A DNA stretch of 64,000 nt from Candidatus Methanosuratincola sp. (GTDB lineage Archaea > Thermoproteota > Methanomethylicia > Methanomethylicales > Methanomethylicaceae), in contig JBBFLR010000003.1 in NCBI GenBank assembly GCA_037478935.1, forward strand, positions 1-64,000. Direction: 5' to 3'. The position numbers were made by a program, and so were the translations under genes. Of the stretch, positions 1 through 9,043 are shown one piece after another. The notes beneath the pieces were generated by a model that saw nothing but the letters and a program-made list of their open reading frames with translations, searched no databases and had not been told where the DNA came from. Within the stretch, counting starts at the first letter, position 1. Each line of letters begins with the position of its first letter.

Positions 1-1044
1 GTTCAGGTCCTCGCAGATTATTGCCTCGCAGATGTCAACGAGGTCGGTCTTGAGCATTGTGAGGACATTCGCGGCCTCGGGGTCGCCGAGCCTTGAGTAC
101 ATCTCTATCACGGTCGGCCCCCAGACCGAAGTCAGCATCATCTGCCCGGCCGAGATACCGTGGTACTTCTTCCCGGTCTCCTTCTGTATCGCGTCGATCA
201 TCATCTTGACTATCTCGGCAGAGCGCCTGTACTCTTCCTCGGTGATCACCGCCCTCTCGTCCTCGACGCCGTACCTCAGGTTCATACAGCATGAGATCGA
301 ACCCATCCCGCCCGTCTCGGGGCCAAGGTCCCCGTCGAACGCGTGCTTGTTGTCCTGCACCGCAGGCATCGGCACGACAGTCCTGCCGTCAGTGAAGCAC
401 TGCACGGTGTACTCGGGGCCCCAAACCCTCTCCTCGATCAGGAGCTTGTACTCAATGTCGTCGTACCCCTTCATGTATTCGTTGACGATGGATTCTGCGT
501 GCTCCTTCTTGACTTTCCTTTTGTCGTCCTGGAGGTACACTTGGAAGTCCTCTATGACCTTGACGCCCTTCCCGCCTGCCTGCCTGGCGGGCTTCAGGGC
601 GATGCTCTCCGCGTACTCCTCAATGTACGGGACAGCCTCCTCAAAGGTCTTGAACTTCTTGTACCATAGCCTGCCTGGGATCTTGTACTTCCACTGCAGG
701 TCGCGCATGCTCGCCTTGGAGAGCTCGAGCTCCGCAACCTCCTTGCTTGCCCCTATGCAGGGTATGCCCTTGGCCTCCAGCTCGTCCGGGATACCGTGGA
801 AGTTCGGCTCCTCTGGGCCCACGAAGACGAAGTCTGGGCTGCACCTGAGGGCCGCGCCCACCACTGCGGACGGGTCGTTTGTGTCGCCCCTGAAGTACTC
901 TCCCCCTCCAGATGAGACGATCTTCCTGATTCCCGGGTTGATCAGCTCCGAGATGCAGTATAACTTCGGGCAGTGCGCGCTCTTCGCGAGCGACTCGGCG
1001 ATCGCGTGCTCCCTGCCACCTCCGCCGACAAGAAGTATCTTCAT
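1..1044 (-). CDS. purD: Phosphoribosylamine--glycine ligase (GARS), 3' end beyond window
   Basis: ATP-grasp enzyme that joins phosphoribosylamine and glycine to give GAR, the second step of purine synthesis, in the cytosol. Translating the minus strand from the ATG at 1044 gives MKILLVGGGGREHAIAESL, the typical GARS N-terminus with its glycine-rich loop. ATP-grasp segments follow, such as ALKPARQAGGKGVKV, GPEYTVQCFTDG and GPETGGMGS, and then SRLGDPEAANVL. The frame is still open at position 1, so about 348 codons are visible of a family that usually has 420-450. The ATG directly abuts the stop of the upstream purF-like gene (1045-1047), so the two are surely co-transcribed. The product of PurF is the substrate of PurD, which makes the pairing sensible. 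Identification is confident. Confidence 0.95.
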   Translation of the reverse strand, partial: MKILLVGGGGREHAIAESLAKSAHCPKLYCISELINPGIRKIVSSGGGEYFRGDTNDPSAVVGAALRCSPDFVFVGPEEPNFHGIPDELEAKGIPCIGASKEVAELELSKASMRDLQWKYKIPGRLWYKKFKTFEEAVPYIEEYAESIALKPARQAGGKGVKVIEDFQVYLQDDKRKVKKEHAESIVNEYMKGYDDIEYKLLIEERVWGPEYTVQCFTDGRTVVPMPAVQDNKHAFDGDLGPETGGMGSISCCMNLRYGVEDERAVITEEEYRRSAEIVKMMIDAIQKETGKKYHGISAGQMMLTSVWGPTVIEMYSRLGDPEAANVLTMLKTDLVDICEAIICEDLN

Positions 1045-2358
1045 TCACTCCACCTCCGGGTAGGCGCCGTTGAAGCATCCTGTGCAGAACTCGCTGCACT
1101 TCAGGCCTGTGGCCTCGACAAGGCCGTCTAGGCTTAGGTACTTGAAAGAGTCTGCACCTATTACCTCTGCGATCTTGTCCTCCTTGAGGTGCCTCCCTAT
1201 CAGCTCGTCCTCACCGGGGACCTCGACCCCGAACGGGCAATGCGACACGATGTGGGGGCTCCCTATCCTGACGTGGATCTCCTTTGCGCCCTTCTCCTTC
1301 ATCAGGTAGACTATGTTCGCCAGAGTATTTCCCCTCACTACGCTGTCGTCGATCAGGACGACCCTCTTACCCCTCACTGCCTCGCTTATGACATTCAGCT
1401 TGAGCTGGACGCCCTTGAGCCTCTCGACTTGGTTAGGCTTCATCGCGCTCCTGACCCTTCTCCCTGTGAGCTCGAACCCCTTCTCCACCGGTATTCCTGT
1501 CTCATTCGAGTATGACATCGCGAAAGGTATCGCGGTCTCTGGGACGCCTATCACCACGTCAGCGTCTGCGCACCCCTCCTGGGCAAGCCTCCTGCCTATC
1601 TCGCGCCTCACCCTGTATACGGGGACATCGTTTATGTAAGAGTCTGGCCTCGCCAGGTACACGTACTCGAATATGCAGTAGGCCTTCTTGGGGGAGCTCT
1701 GGACCCTCTCGGTCCGCGCCGACATCGGCGTGAATACCATGGCATCCCCCGGATCAATGTTCTCGGCTGGGCTTATGGGGACCCTCTCACCGATGATGTC
1801 CATGACGCAGCTCTCGGACGCAACGATCCCGCCGTCGAATCCCATCTTCCCAAGGACGAGGGGCTTTACGCCCAAGCTCCCCCTGCCTGCGATCACTTCG
1901 CCCTTCCCGTTGGCTGCTATGTAGGAGAAGCCGCCCTTGCACCTGCTGAAGTAGTCTCTGATCGCCTCGAGATCCTCTGATCCCCTCTCGAGCTCTTCGT
2001 ATGCCCTCCTGAGGTTTGCCTCGTATGCGAGCTGGGCGTCCCACTTGTAGCCCTCAATGGCTGTGACTTTCCCGTCGATGCTTGCGGAAACCTTGTTGGA
2101 AACGGTAACCGGTAGGGGCTCCGCCTCCTCTGCAGGGTACGGGGAGACCCCGCCTATGAGGATGTTCCCCTTGCCGCTCACTGAGGCAAAAGCCTGCTCC
2201 ACCAGCCCCTTGCCCGTGATCTTCTGCCGGCTCTCGTTGAAGATCTCCATCCCTGCGGTCTCTTGGCCCCTGTGCTGAAGTGCCATCAGGCCAAAGATCC
2301 CGAAGTTGTATGCGTTCCATCTCCTGTCGAACAGGTATATCCCGATTATTCCTGCCAT
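1045..2358 (-). CDS. PurF paralogue with degenerate glutaminase domain
   Basis: 437-residue member of the amidophosphoribosyltransferase family. The C-terminal phosphoribosyltransferase half has an intact PRPP motif (VVLIDDSVVRGNT, around residues 330-342) and a terminal cysteine pair (CSEFCTGC) like the iron-sulfur ligands of Bacillus-type PurF. The N-terminal Ntn-hydrolase half is abnormal. The protein begins MAGIIGIYLFD, with alanine where the catalytic cysteine should be, and I cannot find the usual RYST/G and NGNLVN glutaminase segments; LMALQHRGQETAG is retained. By family knowledge it should not hydrolyse glutamine. It lies 13 bp after a complete PurF and abuts purD. It could use free ammonia, take ammonia from its partner in a heteromer, or be regulatory. 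Family assignment is firm; the role is unknown. Confidence 0.88.
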   Translation of the reverse strand: MAGIIGIYLFDRRWNAYNFGIFGLMALQHRGQETAGMEIFNESRQKITGKGLVEQAFASVSGKGNILIGGVSPYPAEEAEPLPVTVSNKVSASIDGKVTAIEGYKWDAQLAYEANLRRAYEELERGSEDLEAIRDYFSRCKGGFSYIAANGKGEVIAGRGSLGVKPLVLGKMGFDGGIVASESCVMDIIGERVPISPAENIDPGDAMVFTPMSARTERVQSSPKKAYCIFEYVYLARPDSYINDVPVYRVRREIGRRLAQEGCADADVVIGVPETAIPFAMSYSNETGIPVEKGFELTGRRVRSAMKPNQVERLKGVQLKLNVISEAVRGKRVVLIDDSVVRGNTLANIVYLMKEKGAKEIHVRIGSPHIVSHCPFGVEVPGEDELIGRHLKEDKIAEVIGADSFKYLSLDGLVEATGLKCSEFCTGCFNGAYPEVE

Positions 2359-2371
2359 TCATATTCCTCCA

Positions 2372-3835
2372 TCATGCCTCAAGCTCGTAAACCCTTCTGC
2401 CATCCTGATTTACCCTTGACTTCACTCCGTCGGCTATCTTCTGGGCGAGCTCAGTTGGGTACTTCCCGGTCACGCAGGCCATGCACAGGTCTTCGCCTCT
2501 CATCCCCGTCGCCCTCACAAAGTCTTCAAGCGGCTGGTAGCAGACCGCGTCTGCCCCTATCTGCCTGGCTATTTCCGCTTCGTCGTGCCTGAATCCTATC
2601 AGCTCGTTGAATGTGGCCATGTCGATCCCGTAGAAGCATGGGTGAGTGATCCTCGGGAAGGTTACGAACATATAGACCTCCTCAGCGCCCCTCTCCCTGA
2701 GCTTGCTGATGATCGTCTTGGTAGTGTCGCCCCTGACTATGCTGTCCTCCACTACGATCACCTTCTTGCCCCTGAGCCCGCCGTCGGCGACGTTTATCTT
2801 CCTGTCTATCGTGACCCTCCTGTCCTCAGACTCGAGTATGAACGCCCTGTGAGTGACGAACCTGTGCCTCCTCAGCGTCCTCTCCCACCTGATCCCGGTC
2901 TCCTCGTGGAGCCCGTAAGCAGCGTCCTCTGCTGTTTCCGGGATGCTGACTATAACGTCTGCCCTCCTCACGTACTCCTGGTACCTCCTCCCGAGGTTCC
3001 TGCCGAACTCCTCCCTCGTCTTGTAGACGGGCCTGCCGCCGATTATCGAGTCGGGCCTGCTGAAGTAGGAGAGCTCAAAGCCGCAGAGCGCGCGCCTGGG
3101 GCACTTTGCAATCCTTCTCCTTTCCATACCGTCCCCGTTGAAGACTATGGCCTCACCGGGCTCGACCTCCCCCTCTAGGCTGAAAGAGTTGATGTCCAGC
3201 CCGACCGTCTCGGAGGAGACCGCAGTGACGCTCCCGTCCCCGCTCCTGCCGATGCATAGCGGTCTGATCCCGAGCGGGTCCCTGAACGCGAACAGCTCCC
3301 CGTTGGATCTTAGGCCCACGACGGAGTATGCCCCCTCGATTTCCTCCATGCATGCGCCTATTGCCTCAATCATCCCGCCATTTGCCTTCGTTGCAAGGTA
3401 GCGGCACAGCAGCTCCGTGTCCGACGTTGCCCTCATCTTCGGAATCTTGCCTGCCAAAATCCCCCTCAGCCAGCCAATGTTGACAAGGTTGCCGTTGAAT
3501 GCGATGCCCATCTTGGACCGCCCTTGCGAGACCACCATGGGCTGTGCGTCTTTGAGGTGCGAGTAGACATCCCTCTTGCCGGAGGTCCCGTACCTGACAT
3601 GGGCAATCCCCCGCTTCCCAGGGAGCAGCATCTGCCACCTAAGGATCTCCTCCCTCTCGATCCTGGGGACAAGCCCTAGGTCCACGTACCTCTTGAGCCC
3701 TTCCGAGTACGTTAGGAACCCGTAGGACTCGTGCCCCCTGTGGTTCTGGGCGACAAGCCCCCAGTAGAGGGGAACAAAAGCCTCGCTGCTGCCTGTGCTC
3801 ACGACACTGAAGACGCCGCACTTTTCCTTGAGCAT
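2372..3835 (-). CDS. purF: Amidophosphoribosyltransferase, complete
   Basis: Catalyses the committed step of purine synthesis: PRPP plus glutamine to phosphoribosylamine. The 487-residue protein begins MLKEKCGVFSVV, so the nucleophile is Cys6 after a short propeptide that must be removed, as in Bacillus-type PurF. The glutaminase half keeps QNHRGHESYGF, AHVRYGTSGKRD, AFNGNLVN and TSDTELLCRYL. The transferase half has the PRPP motif VIVVEDSIVRGDTT, and the C-terminus has CMAC for a probable iron-sulfur cluster. The start is supported by AAGGGGT a few bases upstream on the minus strand. It is the first gene of the minus-strand operon purF - purF-like - purD and is divergent from hemA. This copy looks fully functional, unlike its downstream paralogue. 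Confidence 0.94.
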   Translation of the reverse strand: MLKEKCGVFSVVSTGSSEAFVPLYWGLVAQNHRGHESYGFLTYSEGLKRYVDLGLVPRIEREEILRWQMLLPGKRGIAHVRYGTSGKRDVYSHLKDAQPMVVSQGRSKMGIAFNGNLVNIGWLRGILAGKIPKMRATSDTELLCRYLATKANGGMIEAIGACMEEIEGAYSVVGLRSNGELFAFRDPLGIRPLCIGRSGDGSVTAVSSETVGLDINSFSLEGEVEPGEAIVFNGDGMERRRIAKCPRRALCGFELSYFSRPDSIIGGRPVYKTREEFGRNLGRRYQEYVRRADVIVSIPETAEDAAYGLHEETGIRWERTLRRHRFVTHRAFILESEDRRVTIDRKINVADGGLRGKKVIVVEDSIVRGDTTKTIISKLRERGAEEVYMFVTFPRITHPCFYGIDMATFNELIGFRHDEAEIARQIGADAVCYQPLEDFVRATGMRGEDLCMACVTGKYPTELAQKIADGVKSRVNQDGRRVYELEA

Positions 3836-3947
3836 GGATACCCCTTATCAATGTATGCGTATATTTGATTGCGCCTTTTTAAGTTTTTTTTAAATGTTTA
3901 TATAAATAAAATCGGGTAGCCATTTGCCCAGCCGCCCCTCCCGCAGC

Positions 3948-3963
3948 GGCGCAGTGTTGCGCC
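3948..3963. repeat. Short perfect inverted repeat between purF and hemA
   Basis: GGCGCA, four bases GTGT, then TGCGCC: a perfect 6-bp stem in the 206-bp divergent intergenic region. It sits in a GC-rich patch (about 3914-3975) between two AT-rich promoter segments. It is not followed by a T-run, so a terminator is unlikely. It could be an operator or chance. Confidence 0.3.
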
Positions 3964-3990
3964 CCAAACACCGCAGAAACATGGTTTTCT

Positions 3991-4022
3991 GTTTCATATG
4001 AAACAAAATGAATATATTAAAA
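3991..4022 (+). promoter_or_regulatory. hemA/F430 operon promoter with palindromic operator
   Basis: GTTTCATATGAAAC at 3991-4004 is a perfect 14-bp palindrome. It is followed directly by an A-rich stretch and an archaeal TATA-like element AATATATTAAAA (4011-4022). With the TATA centre near 4016, transcription should begin at about 4042, the hemA ATG itself, so the operon is probably leaderless. Nearly the same block, GTTTCTTATGAAAC, recurs upstream of the ABC transporter at 15247-15260, followed by the same AAAAT run. The palindrome lies just upstream of the TATA box, where an archaeal activator or repressor could act. Confidence 0.65.
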
Positions 4023-4041
4023 CAACCTTCAGGGAAAATCG

Positions 4042-5238
4042 ATGCCGCAGATACTGTGCCTATCGATCAGCCACAAAAAGGCCCCAGTCCGAGTACTTGA
4101 GAGTTTCGCCATAAAAGATATCGTCTCTTTCCTTGCGCGCCTTAAGGAGCTTGGGGCAGAGGAATGCGCAGTGATCCAGACCTGCCACAGGGTTGAGATC
4201 TATTCTGTGGGCTCCTGCATAGGGCACAGCGAGCTCAAGGAGTTTCTGGTCTCCAACTCGGGCAGCTGCTGTCCAATTGACATTTATGAGGAGTTTTACG
4301 AAGGCGAGGAGGCGGTAAGGCATCTCTTTTACCTGGCTTCCGGCCTCGAGTCCGTGATTCTTGGGGAGAACGAGGTGCTGCACCAAGTGGAAGAGGCATT
4401 CAGGCTAGCCAGTGGCTCAGGATGCGCTGGCAAGGTCCTAGGGATCATATTCAGGGGGGCTATCAACGCTGGTAGGATGGTGAGGCGCAAGACATCGATC
4501 TCAAAAGGCTCGGTGTCTTTGGGCAACGTGGTCTTGAAGGCTATACTTTTGGAGCTCGGCACATTGGAGGGCAAGAAGATCGTCATAATAGGCGCTGGCA
4601 AGATCGGTTGCCTCATAGCGAAGTCCCTGCCGCGAAAGGGCCCGATCACCGTGTTCATAGCAAACCGGACATACTCGCGCGCAGAGAAGCTGGCGGTCTC
4701 GGTCGGCGGGAGGGCAGTCCGTTTTGAGAGCCTCAGGGAGACAATTGCAGGGGCAGACGCTGTTGTGTGCGCCACTTCCTCTCCTCATCTTGTGCTTCGG
4801 CCAAGTGATCTAGATCAGCTCGACTCGAGAAAGCGGATCCTGATCATCGATGTTTCGAACCCTCGGGGCGTGGACGAGCGAATAAGGGATTTGGGCTGTG
4901 CGAAGCTGATAGACTTGGACGAGCTCATACGGATAGCAAGGGAGAATATGAAGAACAGGGAGGAGGCGATGATAAAGGCAAAGGAATTGATCGAGCCTTC
5001 TCTAGCGCTAGTAATGCATAGGCTGCAGGCTGGGGAACAGAAGAAAAAGTTTGAAGAGGTAATGCGGTGGGCTGAGGAGAGGCGGAGGAAAGCATTGGAG
5101 CTCGCCCTGAAGAAGGGAAGGTTCTCCGAGGAACAGACCAAGGTCATAAGCGACTTCTCGTACATACTTATGCGCGACCTCATCGTGCCGCTATTCGGCG
5201 AGAGCGATTTGCAGGAGGGGCCAACTGGTGGATGCTAG
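4042..5238 (+). CDS. hemA: Glutamyl-tRNA reductase
   Basis: Reduces glutamyl-tRNA(Glu) with NADPH to glutamate-1-semialdehyde, the first step of C5 tetrapyrrole synthesis. 398 residues. The N-terminal catalytic domain has the nucleophile Cys48 in QTCHRVEIY (most homologues have TCNR), and GLESVILGENEVLHQV matches the family's GExQI region. The NADPH domain shows IIGAGKIGCLIA, and the C-terminal part is a helical dimerisation domain. It is the first gene of the tetrapyrrole/F430 operon and overlaps hemB by 11 bp. The TATA box about 26 bp upstream suggests a leaderless transcript starting at this ATG. Feedback by haem, known in some bacteria, cannot be judged here. Confidence 0.96.
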   Translation: MPQILCLSISHKKAPVRVLESFAIKDIVSFLARLKELGAEECAVIQTCHRVEIYSVGSCIGHSELKEFLVSNSGSCCPIDIYEEFYEGEEAVRHLFYLASGLESVILGENEVLHQVEEAFRLASGSGCAGKVLGIIFRGAINAGRMVRRKTSISKGSVSLGNVVLKAILLELGTLEGKKIVIIGAGKIGCLIAKSLPRKGPITVFIANRTYSRAEKLAVSVGGRAVRFESLRETIAGADAVVCATSSPHLVLRPSDLDQLDSRKRILIIDVSNPRGVDERIRDLGCAKLIDLDELIRIARENMKNREEAMIKAKELIEPSLALVMHRLQAGEQKKKFEEVMRWAEERRRKALELALKKGRFSEEQTKVISDFSYILMRDLIVPLFGESDLQEGPTGGC

Positions 5239-6199
5239 AATTACTTCAAGGCTGAGGAAGAGCTACGTTCTAAGGGATCTCGCATGCGAGTCTGATCTCA
5301 ATCCCAGCAAGTTCATAATGCCTGTATTCGTGAAGGAGAGCGGAGAGATCGAGAGATCTCGCTGGGGCGGGATGGAGAAGGTCCCTCTCAAGGCCCTTGT
5401 GAGTTATCTCGAACCGTTGGCGGATGCGGGAATCCGATCTGTTCTGATGTTCGGCCTGCCGTGCTCGAAGGATCCGTCTGGATCTTCAGCCTACGCCGCA
5501 GAGGGTGTGGTTCAGCAGGCAATAAGGGCGGCAAAGGGCTCTTTCCCAGAGATCGCCGTCCTGACTGATGTATGCCTCTGCCAGTACACTGACCATGGTC
5601 ATTGCGGCATCCTCGAGGGGGAATCGATAAGCAGGGAAAAGACCCTAAGCGCGCTATCAAAGATAGCTGTCAGCCATGCAGAAGCTGGAGCAGATGTCGT
5701 CGCTCCCTCGGCCATGGCTGACGGGCAGGTCGCGTCCATAAGGGCTGCGCTGGACGCCTCTGGCTACGATTCGGTCGCAATCATGTCATACTCGGCGAAG
5801 TACTGCTCCTCCCTCTATGCGCCATTCAGGGATGTCGCTTCCTCGGCGCCTTCTTTTGGAGACAGGTCGGCTTACCAGATGGACATACGGAACAGGCGTG
5901 AGGCAATAGCCGAAGCATTAGAGGACATAAGGGAGGGGGCGGATATCGTCATGGTAAAGCCTGCCATAACAAACCTAGACGTAATCAGGGATTTGCGGAA
6001 AAGGTTGCTTTGCCCGATAGCCGCATACCAGGTGAGCGGGGAGTACGCGATGATCAAGGTCTACTCCGACGCAGCAGGCGTATCTGAAGCCCGCGTTGTT
6101 CTCGAGATGCTCCGCTCAATAAGGAGGGCGGGTGCCGACATGATCATCACCTACTTCGCCCCCCAAACGATTGCCTATCTTAGGGAGGTCTGGGATTGA
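5228..6199 (+). CDS. hemB: Porphobilinogen synthase (5-aminolevulinate dehydratase)
   Basis: Condenses two 5-aminolevulinate molecules to porphobilinogen. 323 residues, GTG start inside the end of hemA. The zinc-type active site is evident: DVCLCQYTDHGHCG supplies Cys116, Cys118 and Cys126. The two Schiff-base lysines are Lys191 in SYSAKYCSSLYAPFRD and Lys244 in VMVKPAI. This indicates a zinc-dependent rather than a magnesium-only enzyme. It sits second in the operon, one step out of reaction order (hemA-hemB-hemL), and ends overlapping the hemL start. Confidence 0.96.
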   Translation: MDARITSRLRKSYVLRDLACESDLNPSKFIMPVFVKESGEIERSRWGGMEKVPLKALVSYLEPLADAGIRSVLMFGLPCSKDPSGSSAYAAEGVVQQAIRAAKGSFPEIAVLTDVCLCQYTDHGHCGILEGESISREKTLSALSKIAVSHAEAGADVVAPSAMADGQVASIRAALDASGYDSVAIMSYSAKYCSSLYAPFRDVASSAPSFGDRSAYQMDIRNRREAIAEALEDIREGADIVMVKPAITNLDVIRDLRKRLLCPIAAYQVSGEYAMIKVYSDAAGVSEARVVLEMLRSIRRAGADMIITYFAPQTIAYLREVWD

Positions 6200-7458
6200 A
6201 GTCCGAGACTCTATTCAGGCGAGCTACCTCGGTCATGCCTGGCGGCGTGGACAGCCCAGTCAGGCGCTTTGCGCCCTTCCCATTCTTTACGTCCAGGGCC
6301 AAGGGCTCAAGGATCTTCACAGAGGACGGGAAGTCGCTTATTGACTACTGCCTTGCTTACGGTCCATTGATATTCGGGCATGCGCCCGGATTCTTGGCTG
6401 AAGCGGTCGCCAGGCAGGTGCAAGAGGGCAGCGTCTACGGCACCCCCCACCATGCAGAGGTGGAGCTTGCAGAGGAAGTGGTCCGTTCCGTCCCTTCGAT
6501 CTCGATGGTTCGGTTCGTCAACTCCGGGGGGGAGGCTGCCATGAGCGCAATAAGGCTCGCCAGGGCATTCACAAAGAGGAGTAGGATCATAAAGTTCGAC
6601 GGATGTTACCACGGCGCGGTCGATCCTTTGCTCGTGGATGGCATAGGCCCCGAAAGGCGCGCCCTCTCTGAAGGGATCACCGAGGCGGTTGTGGGAGAGA
6701 CTGCAGTGATCCCCTTCAACGACATAAGCTCGCTTGACATGATCAACGAAGATGTCGCAGGGGTGATAGTGGAACCGGTGATGGGAAACGTTGGGCTTGT
6801 GATCCCTGAGGAGGGTTTCCTTAGGGAGCTAAGGAAGGCATGCACTGCTGCCGGCGCGGTCCTGATATTCGATGAAGTGATAACCGGATTCCGGCTAGCG
6901 AAAGGTGGAGCACAGCAGCTCTTTGGCGTTTTTCCCGACCTGACTACACTCGGGAAGGTGCTGGGCGGGGGTTTCCCTGTTGGGGCTTTCGGAGGGAGGA
7001 AGGAGATAATGGAGCTGGTCGCCCCCCAGGGGAAAGTTTACAATGCCGGGACTTTCAACGGGAACCCTGTCACAATGGTCGCCGGGCTAAGCGTTCTGAG
7101 GATGCTTGATGGCAACGTTTATTCCAGCTTGTCCAAAAAGACTGATGGGCTATGCTCAGGCATCGGGGACATCCTGGAAGACGAAGGGTTCGACTTCCGG
7201 ATCAACAAGCTGGGATCAATATTCACCGTCTTCCTGACGGACCAGCCGGTTAAGGACAAGGCGAGTGCAAAGCGTGCAAGATCAGGCCTGTTCAGCCAGC
7301 TCCACAGCGCACTGCTGGAGAACGGAGTTTACTTCCCCCCTTCGCAGTTCGAGTGCTGCTTCCTGTCGGCGGCACACTCTGTTGACGACATCTCAGCGAC
7401 ACTCGATGCGCTGTCCAAGTCTGTTAAAGCAATCAAGTCTGGAGGGACCTTGCCATGA
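6196..7458 (+). CDS. hemL: Glutamate-1-semialdehyde 2,1-aminomutase
   Basis: PLP enzyme that converts glutamate-1-semialdehyde to 5-aminolevulinate. 420 residues with a TTG start overlapping the hemB stop by four bases. The class III aminotransferase fold shows NSGGEAAMSAIRLARAFT for phosphate binding, DEVITGFR with the PLP-contacting Asp, and TTLGKVLGGGFPVGAFGG with the Schiff-base Lys254. The N-terminal VMPGGVDSPVRRFAPF is characteristic of HemL rather than of other class III aminotransferases. It works directly on the unstable product of HemA, and co-expression is ensured by overlap. Confidence 0.96.
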   Translation: MKSETLFRRATSVMPGGVDSPVRRFAPFPFFTSRAKGSRIFTEDGKSLIDYCLAYGPLIFGHAPGFLAEAVARQVQEGSVYGTPHHAEVELAEEVVRSVPSISMVRFVNSGGEAAMSAIRLARAFTKRSRIIKFDGCYHGAVDPLLVDGIGPERRALSEGITEAVVGETAVIPFNDISSLDMINEDVAGVIVEPVMGNVGLVIPEEGFLRELRKACTAAGAVLIFDEVITGFRLAKGGAQQLFGVFPDLTTLGKVLGGGFPVGAFGGRKEIMELVAPQGKVYNAGTFNGNPVTMVAGLSVLRMLDGNVYSSLSKKTDGLCSGIGDILEDEGFDFRINKLGSIFTVFLTDQPVKDKASAKRARSGLFSQLHSALLENGVYFPPSQFECCFLSAAHSVDDISATLDALSKSVKAIKSGGTLP

Positions 7459-8336
7459 CCGTAAGGGTTGGGACGCGCGGGTCCAAGCTCGCAATATTGC
7501 AGGCAGAATATGTCTTGGGCAGGCTCAGGGAGATCTGCGATGAAGATTTGTCGATAGTCAAGATAAGGACGTCTGGCGACATTGGCGGTCCTTCGAGACT
7601 GCAAAAACTCGGAACTGGGATATTCGAGAAAGAGGTCGACGAGGCACTACTGAGGGGCGAGGTTGACTTGGCGGTTCACAGCATGAAGGATGTGCCGACC
7701 TCGATACATGATGGCTTGGTCGTTGCAGCGATCGCCTCTCATGATTACGAAAGCATCGCATCCCTGCCTGAGGGAGGGATCGTGGGGACCAGCAGCCCGA
7801 GGAGAGCCGCGCAGATAAAGTCCTTAAGGCGAGACCTGCAAGTCGCTAGCCTCAGGGGAAATGTCGACACGCGAATCAGGCGCCTTAAGGAGGGTGCGTT
7901 CCAGGGGATAATTGTCGCGGAGGCTGCCCTAGCCAGGATGGGGATAATGGACGTAAAGATGGAACGCCTCCCGACCGATCTGATCCCCACAAGCCCAGGG
8001 CAGGGGGCTCTGGCTGTCATTGCCAGGAAAGGTGATTCGAGGATGCTTGAACTTGTATCCAAAATAAACTCCGAAGATTCTATGGAAGAAGTTGTAGCAG
8101 AGAGGGCATTTTTGAGGAGGCTTGGCTGCGGCTGCTCTTCTCCTGTTGGTTGCACAGCCACTGTTTCAGGGCCCAGGTTGATCATCTCGTGCGGCCTTTA
8201 CTCGATCGACGGCGCTTGGTCGAGGACGTTCAAATTTGATTTCCCTAGGGGGGACCCTGAGCTGTGTGGCATTGATGCTGCCGATAGGGTGCTGAGCGAC
8301 TGCGATGTAGCCCGCTTCTGGAGGGGAGGGCGATGA
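7455..8336 (+). CDS. hemC: Hydroxymethylbilane synthase (porphobilinogen deaminase)
   Basis: Polymerises four porphobilinogens into hydroxymethylbilane. 293 residues, ATG start overlapping the hemL stop. Typical segments are VGTRGSKLAILQAEYV at the N-terminus, LAVHSMKDVPT with the catalytic Asp79, GTSSPRRAAQ, LRGNVDTRIRRL and the domain 3 cofactor site LGCGCSSPVG. Cys227 is the expected attachment point of the dipyrromethane cofactor; the extra Cys225 beside it is unusual but not disabling. Length is normal for archaeal HemC. Confidence 0.95.
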   Translation: MTVRVGTRGSKLAILQAEYVLGRLREICDEDLSIVKIRTSGDIGGPSRLQKLGTGIFEKEVDEALLRGEVDLAVHSMKDVPTSIHDGLVVAAIASHDYESIASLPEGGIVGTSSPRRAAQIKSLRRDLQVASLRGNVDTRIRRLKEGAFQGIIVAEAALARMGIMDVKMERLPTDLIPTSPGQGALAVIARKGDSRMLELVSKINSEDSMEEVVAERAFLRRLGCGCSSPVGCTATVSGPRLIISCGLYSIDGAWSRTFKFDFPRGDPELCGIDAADRVLSDCDVARFWRGGR

Positions 8337-9043
8337 AGGGAAAAGTCTACCTTGTCGGGGCTGGCGTGCTTGGGGTGGAGAACCTAACGATTCGCGCACA
8401 CCGCCTCATCTCCGAGGCAGATGTGATCCTCTATGATCGGCTGGTGGACTCGTCCCTCCTTAAGCTTGCCAAGCCTGGCGCCGAGATCGTTTACGCAGGG
8501 AAGGAGCCAGGCGATGGTCCGCAGAAACAAAAGGAATTGACTGAGATGATGGTGTGCTATGCTAGGTCAGGAAAGATTGTGGTCAGGCTAAAGAGCGGCG
8601 ACCCGTTCGTATTCGGAAGGGGTGGCGAGGAGCTGATCTCTCTTCGTGAGGCTGGCATAGATGCTGAGGTCGTGCCGGGCCTGACGTCGGCAGTGGCCCT
8701 GCCTACTCTGGCATGCATCCCTTTGACTATGCGGGACATCTCCTCCTCTGTGCTGATCTTGACAGGCCACCTTGCGAAGCCCGAAGAGGAGGCTTATTTC
8801 AAGGCTCATGCGCGCTTCCCTGGGACAGTCGTCCTCCTGATGTCGATGTCAAGCCTCTCTAGGATCTCCAGGTATTTGGTTGAGGGCGGGATGAGCCCAG
8901 AGAGGCCTGTTGCAATAATAACCAGCTCGGGCGGGCTGCGGAAGGAATTCTACAGGCTAGGGGAGCTTATCGGACGGGAAGACAGGCCCGATGGCCCCGG
9001 GGTTGTGGTAATAGGCGAGGTTGTGGAGGCATTCATGCATTGA
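8333..9043 (+). CDS. cobA: Uroporphyrinogen-III C-methyltransferase
   Basis: Adds methyl groups from SAM at C2 and C7 of uroporphyrinogen III to give precorrin-2, the branch point to sirohydrochlorin and F430. 236 residues. Family segments are clear: ILYDRLVD, VVRLKSGDPFVFGRGGEE, VVPGLTSAVALP and IPLTMRD. The first SAM-loop motif is atypical: homologues have GAGPGDPELLT, whereas this protein has GAGVLGVENLT near residues 10-20, losing the PGDP core. Overlapping start (ATG at 8333) and stop link it to hemC and hemD. The context, between hemC/hemD and cfbA, fits SUMT. Confidence 0.92.
   Translation: MKGKVYLVGAGVLGVENLTIRAHRLISEADVILYDRLVDSSLLKLAKPGAEIVYAGKEPGDGPQKQKELTEMMVCYARSGKIVVRLKSGDPFVFGRGGEELISLREAGIDAEVVPGLTSAVALPTLACIPLTMRDISSSVLILTGHLAKPEEEAYFKAHARFPGTVVLLMSMSSLSRISRYLVEGGMSPERPVAIITSSGGLRKEFYRLGELIGREDRPDGPGVVVIGEVVEAFMH

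Follow-up and report, generated by a model that had tools for sequence, protein, structure and literature searches.

A PurF′-type PurF paralogue in Methanosuratincola and its co-inheritance with a distinct clade of PurD

The 64,000-nucleotide stretch of DNA analyzed here (the window), from the methanogenic archaeon Candidatus Methanosuratincola, encodes two adjacent paralogues of PurF, the enzyme of the first step in purine synthesis, one of which carries alanine in place of the catalytic cysteine. By the features tested (no N-terminal cysteine, a cluster of its own, and purine genes as neighbors), this Ala copy is a member of PurF′. PurF′ is a single ancient clade, is under strong purifying selection, and is strictly co-inherited across the phylum with one clade of PurD, here termed PurD-A. 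PurF′ was already known in kind; new are its host group, the Methanomethylicia, and its tie to a PurD clade. PurF′ has gone without an assigned function for fifteen years; its co-inheritance with PurD-A now points to steps 1 and 2 of purine synthesis as the place to look and supplies a partner as well as candidate contact regions.

Organization of the purF–purF′ locus

The two PurF reading frames are intact, lie on the minus strand without overlapping each other, and are followed by purD (Table 1). The Ala copy is flanked by a complete-looking PurF on one side and by purD on the other, and its stop codon directly abuts the start of purD (TGAATG). An in-frame TGA immediately precedes the start codon of the Ala copy (ATA TGA ATG GCA), and the stop-to-stop frame is exactly 437 amino acids long. 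Therefore, no earlier start can supply a cysteine, and a mis-annotated start that hides this residue is ruled out. Such start-site errors have been corrected for other archaeal purF genes (PMC3261824). With two intact frames, alanine for the catalytic cysteine, and no alternative start, the initial annotation was right to describe tandem PurF paralogues of which one lacks the glutaminase nucleophile.

Table 1. Features of the purF–purF′ locus, in window coordinates (domains in residues of the protein)
Feature	Position	Strand	Remarks
purD, PurF′-associated type (PurD-A)	1..1044	(−)	begins with ATG at 1044; 3′ part missing because the window and its contig start here
purF′	1045..2358	(−)	PurF paralogue, 437 aa, N terminus M-A-G (MAGIIGIYL...)
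Glutaminase-like domain of purF′	residues ∼1–228		without catalytic residues
Type I phosphoribosyltransferase domain of purF′	residues ∼229–437		with PRPP loop and Fe-S cysteines
purF–purF′ junction, 13 nt	2359..2371	(−)	GGAGGA, ribosome-binding-like
purF	2372..3835	(−)	full PurF, 487 aa (MLKEKCGVF...); Cys nucleophile preceded by five leader residues (MLKEK, then CGVF)
TATA-like TTTATATAAA	3897..3906	(−)	∼60 nt upstream of purF; spotted by eye only

The purF–purF′ pair recurs in identical or almost identical form in M. subterraneus Ch88 and M. petrocarbonis V4, and it is kept family-wide free of frameshifts, indicating that it is neither a product of chance nor an assembly artifact. As read from the sequence, purF–purF′–purD is followed in M. 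subterraneus by an ATP-grasp gene resembling purT/purK, by purE, and by purL. The assembly breaks within purD of the Methanosuratincola genome, and residues 381–494 of the encoded protein are found on another contig (G000:C4:115676-116017). On the other side of the locus, purF shares an AT-rich intergenic region (3836–4041) with a divergent tetrapyrrole cluster on the plus strand (4042–9043), which we read from the sequence as hemA, hemB, hemL, hemC, and a cobA-like methyltransferase gene. The TATA-like element lies within this purF/hemA region.

Residue conservation and selection in PurF′

Both copies are full-length PurF homologues that contain the PRPP loop and four Fe-S cysteines, and both score below the curated cut-off of TIGR01134 (350 bits), the Cys copy with 323 bits and the Ala copy with 272 bits. 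In the Cys copy, every glutaminase residue is present, in line with the initial description of the proximal copy as complete, and its N-terminal cysteine and glutamine-site residues are those of canonical glutamine-dependent PurF (EC 2.4.2.14). Bathyarchaeia-like genomes have a PurF of the same divergent type as their only one, and it too stays below the cut-off, which is thus strict for proteins of this clade. The transferase domain of the Cys copy is likewise of a type that occurs as the only PurF in these genomes. We considered a reciprocal loss, in which the transferase of the Cys copy would not work. The closing loop of this copy does diverge, but the same loop is found in the single-copy PurF of Bathyarchaeia-like genomes; the Cys copy is therefore probably self-sufficient, and we rejected this possibility. 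In most of the Bathyarchaeia-like single PurFs (L156–L165), the histidine of the GHVRY motif is replaced by asparagine (GNVRYTT), unlike in the Methanosuratincola PurF.

The Ala copy has lost Cys1 (alanine follows the initial methionine), the arginine, tyrosine, and threonine of GHVRY[SA]T (GGVSPYP instead), the asparagine of NGN (IDGK instead, with the glycine retained), and the aspartate of SDTE (YEAN instead). The other glutaminase motifs, noted early on as missing from the distal copy, are thus lost in the sense that every glutaminase residue except the oxyanion glycine is replaced; the LQHRGQE motif survives. By contrast with these losses, the PRPP loop VVLIDDSVVRGNT, the GVQLKLN motif, and all four Fe-S cysteines (Cys-227, Cys-373, Cys-424, and Cys-427, of the B. 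subtilis PurF type) are retained, in agreement with the first description of this copy.

The AlphaFold model of the Ala copy has a mean pLDDT of 81. Its glutaminase-like domain is mostly at 80–95 with a dip near residues 71–80, and its closing loop is disordered. The resemblance to PurF of B. subtilis, Arabidopsis, and E. coli extends over the length of the model (Foldseek E value of 1e-38 to B. subtilis PurF). The Ala copy shares whole-length homology, the two-domain fold, and the PRPP loop with PurF of B. subtilis (1GPH/1AO0) and E. coli (1ECF) but differs from them in the absent cysteine nucleophile and glutamine-binding residues, in the replacement of the channel loop phenylalanine by alanine or methionine, and in its low TIGR01134 score.

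In a tree of the transferase domain, all 50 sampled PurF′ sequences, the Ala copy included, form one clade (SH-aLRT 100) apart from all cysteine-bearing PurF. The clade takes in Sulfolobales-like and Thermoproteales-like copies; these labels, like Desulfurococcales-like below, are lineage assignments that we presume to be correct. The residues Cys1, Arg-73, Tyr-74, Thr-76, Asn-101, Asp-127 (E. coli numbering), and the loop phenylalanine, which is part of the internal ammonia channel of PurF, are invariant (100%) among 106 archaeal PurF. In 72 archaeal PurF′, they are replaced in all or nearly all sequences, Asp-127 in most. The D-D-S-G of the PRPP loop and the arginine and lysine of the closing loop are 100% retained in the same 72 PurF′, some of them more strictly than in PurF. 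In a set of crenarchaeal PurF′ (L124–L133 and others), the PRPP-loop arginine is replaced by threonine or serine (DDSMVTGTT), which gives a loop similar to those of salvage phosphoribosyltransferases.

PurF′ was described in 2011 in Crenarchaeota as clustered with purF and with alanine or valine at position 1 in many cases (Brown et al. 2011, PMC3261824), a precedent of which the initial annotation took no account. The Ala copy resembles these proteins in the replacement of Cys1 (by alanine, valine, or another residue), in forming a cluster of its own, and in the proximity of purF and purine genes; it differs in its host, a member of the Methanomethylicia. The clade extends further to Brockarchaeia and to many other Thermoproteota families. 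A scan of GTDB contigs, itself insensitive, returned close relatives only from archaea (Methanomethylicia, Brockarchaeia, and one contig labeled Bathyarchaeota). In every genome checked, PurF′ is accompanied by PurF or a PurF fragment and is never a replacement for it, and these cysteine-bearing partners are drawn from several PurF clades. Some relatives (G062 and G076 of the same family, genus g5, and G109) are without PurF, PurF′, and PurD, which suggests that they have lost the early part of the purine pathway.

Within the Methanomethyliaceae, ω ranges from 0.02 to 0.09 for the transferase domain of PurF′ and from 0.02 to 0.26 for its glutaminase-like domain; the selection check called for on the latter thus indicates purifying selection. 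Compared with the Cys copy, PurF′ has a transferase dN that is on average ∼1.8-fold lower (range 1.3–2.4), as calculated for ten relatives with measurable divergence, each compared with the window copy, so that the comparisons are not independent. Across lineages, the transferase domain of PurF′ is the more conserved one in six of nine groups, the exceptions being the Desulfurococcales-like and Thermoproteales-like groups and f35/f58.

The loss of catalytic residues in one domain might be taken as a sign that PurF′ is a decaying, functionless duplicate. Against this stand one ancient clade across dozens of families, reading frames that are intact, and ω values that do not exceed 0.26 in either domain, and the chance of a pseudogene is negligible; selection and conservation rule it out. 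The observations that might have spoken against the early reading of the pair were a divergent copy free of purifying selection, a single PurF in relatives, and frameshifts; what we found is constraint on the divergent copy and the same unbroken pair in relatives.

Co-inheritance of PurF′ with PurD-A

In nearly all loci, purF′ adjoins purD, even where purF lies several kb away or is oppositely oriented. In Ignicoccus-like genomes, a long distance separates purF′ from purD, and the tail of PurD is short. Every sampled genome with PurF′ encodes a PurD close to that of the window, in most cases as the single PurD match, whereas genomes that lack PurF′ encode other kinds of PurD. In the PurD tree, 47 of 47 PurD from genomes with PurF′ fall into one clade (support 100) and 30 of 30 from genomes that lack it fall outside; the nearest outsider is a PurD from family f49, whose genome has no PurF′.

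A phylum-wide search with PurD-A agrees family by family with the search for PurF′, both being present or both absent. This comparison was made by reading the tables, and two genomes of the doubtful family f11 were checked directly. A PurD-A fragment at a contig end in one genome (G093), where neither PurF nor PurF′ was seen, is uninformative. On an EF-2 tree of 78 genomes, the presence of PurF′ requires nine changes, at least seven of which lie on well-supported branches, and PurD-A changes with PurF′ in seven of seven independent pairs (sign test, p = 0.016). One genus illustrates this pattern: two of its genomes (G331 and G359) carry both PurF′ and PurD-A, and a third (G391) carries neither but has PurF and another kind of PurD side by side.

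PurD-A itself has distinct features. It contains the GARS signature motifs (e.g. RLGDPE), an insertion of ∼12 residues in the ATP-grasp domain, and a C-terminal tail with a median of 44 residues past the RxDIG motif, compared with 19 residues in other PurD. The tail motif R..Y/W/F..R is present in 45 of 47 PurD-A and in none of 30 other PurD. The AlphaFold model of PurD-A has a confidence of 57, which is too low to place the tail. We found no report of a link between PurF′ and PurD in the open literature searched, and neither this link nor the slower evolution of the transferase domain is reported in Brown et al. 2011, as far as the available text goes (PMC3261824).

The presence of PurF′, taken as a label, changes once on the PurD tree but ten times on the PurF tree. 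Mirror-tree correlations of distances are 0.74 for PurF′–PurD, 0.65 for PurF–PurD, and 0.43 for PurF–PurF′, the difference being modest; given PurD, the partial correlation of PurF and PurF′ is −0.11.

These values also bear on another reading of PurF′, that of a regulatory or structural component of a PurF/PurF′ hetero-oligomer, in which it would set the stability or nucleotide feedback of PurF in analogy to dead paralogues of some nucleotide enzymes. In favor of this reading, PurF′ has the PurF fold, retains the glutaminase-like domain, shares an operon with purF in most lineages, and has always been accompanied by PurF or part of it. However, PurF′ is found with PurF from several clades, the partial correlation with PurF given PurD, a gauge of co-evolution beyond shared history, is −0.11, and Bathyarchaeia-like PurFs near that of Methanosuratincola occur in genomes without PurF′. 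The ligand site is also better kept than in PurF, which is unusual for a purely structural subunit, and we regard the hetero-oligomer as unlikely. Of the functional reading in the initial annotation, retained function is strongly supported by monophyly, the low ω values, and phylum-wide conservation, whereas the heteromeric enzyme is not favored by the evolutionary evidence, namely PurD co-inheritance and mixed PurF clades.

The joint pattern of PurF′ and PurD-A may in part reflect operon linkage or the joint transfer of neighboring genes. Pure hitch-hiking is opposed by PurF, which usually lies in the same cluster and does not follow, and by the persistence of unlinked purF′ and purD in Ignicoccus-like genomes. 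One could imagine that PurF′ is carried by linkage and does another job, such as that of the IMP cyclohydrolase listed as missing in Crenarchaeota (PMC3261824); PurO and PurH are indeed absent from 43 of 45 PurF′-bearing genomes tested. Among genomes that lack PurF′, however, 25 of 35 are without them as well, so PurF′ is not the complement, and its PRPP-type site and linkage to purD point to steps 1 and 2 instead. We consider this role highly improbable and rejected it on the presence pattern. Overall, 68 of 80 Thermoproteota genomes having PurF, with or without PurF′, yielded no known IMP cyclohydrolase (PurO or PurH), the enzyme of the last step.

A possible role at purine steps 1 and 2

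Because of the strict co-inheritance, the adjacency to purD, and the PurF partners from several clades, PurF′ may well be a dedicated partner of PurD-A that forms or accepts phosphoribosylamine (PRA), the highly unstable first intermediate of the pathway, and passes it on, rather than chiefly a PurF subunit; our confidence in this reading is evenly balanced. PurF′ would have given up glutamine hydrolysis, kept its PRPP-binding phosphoribosyltransferase site, and come to act where step 1 meets step 2. The transferase site would either make PRA from PRPP and free ammonia or take PRA made by PurF, and PRA would be handed straight to PurD-A, on which the clade-specific C-terminal tail (..R..Y..R...GLLGKR..W.PG.G) and the ATP-grasp insertion are candidate contacts. 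We infer physical contact between the two proteins, binding or synthesis of PRA by PurF′, and the roles of tail and insertion. Somewhat more tentatively, PurF′ and PurD-A could form an undescribed two-protein module of the Thermoproteota, in which PRA is made or received and delivered to a PurD with dedicated docking elements.

Several observations count against a PurD-A partner. Many archaea manage with ordinary PurF and PurD and need no such channeling partner, the mirror-tree difference is modest, and Ignicoccus-like genomes combine unlinked genes with a short tail. In addition, PurF′ is less conserved than PurF in deep crenarchaeal lineages, and it never takes the place of PurF.

Alternatively, PurF′ might be a free-standing, ammonia-dependent PRPP aminotransferase. 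In ammonia-rich, anaerobic habitats, it would convert PRPP and NH3 to PRA alongside glutamine-dependent PurF, with no special tie to PurD. Among the possibilities raised by Brown et al. 2011, who did not settle on a function, is an ammonia-dependent enzyme (PMC3261824). The intact PRPP site and loop next to a dead glutaminase are consistent with it, as is E. coli PurF, which still uses ammonia when Cys1 is replaced (PMC3261824). The loss of the loop phenylalanine would also fit a disused internal ammonia channel. By itself, this proposal explains neither the pairing with one PurD clade nor the folded and constrained inactive domain, and it appears improbable to us.

The suggested partnership of PurF′ with PurD-A has a parallel in E. 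coli, where the hand-over of PRA from PurF to PurD is supported by kinetic evidence and no stable complex has been detected (PMC10912719, PMC3261824). Channeling was reported by Rudolph and Stubbe 1995, and a docking model was proposed by Wang et al. 1998 (both as summarized in PMC10912719). The two cases would share the junction, the unstable PRA, and a PurF-fold protein that delivers to PurD. The donor in E. coli is ordinary PurF, whereas here it would be a separate, glutaminase-dead paralogue that is co-inherited with a PurD bearing extra elements. For the enzymes of the hyperthermophile Aquifex, PurF–PurD coupling is poor, and a further factor has been suggested (PMC10912719, PMC3261824). 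PurF′ might be a factor of this kind for PurD-A. If so, PurF′–PurD-A would represent a stable, genetically fixed answer to PRA channeling, a problem for which bacteria have yielded no stable complex, and would offer a tractable, stable system for studying the transfer of PRA, whose hand-over from PurF to PurD is still debated. It would also call for a change in annotation, in that purF′ genes should not carry the name amidophosphoribosyltransferase. A link of PurF′ to high temperature is possible. It is not strict, because Methanomethylicus species, which are digester-derived, also carry the purF–purF′ pair.
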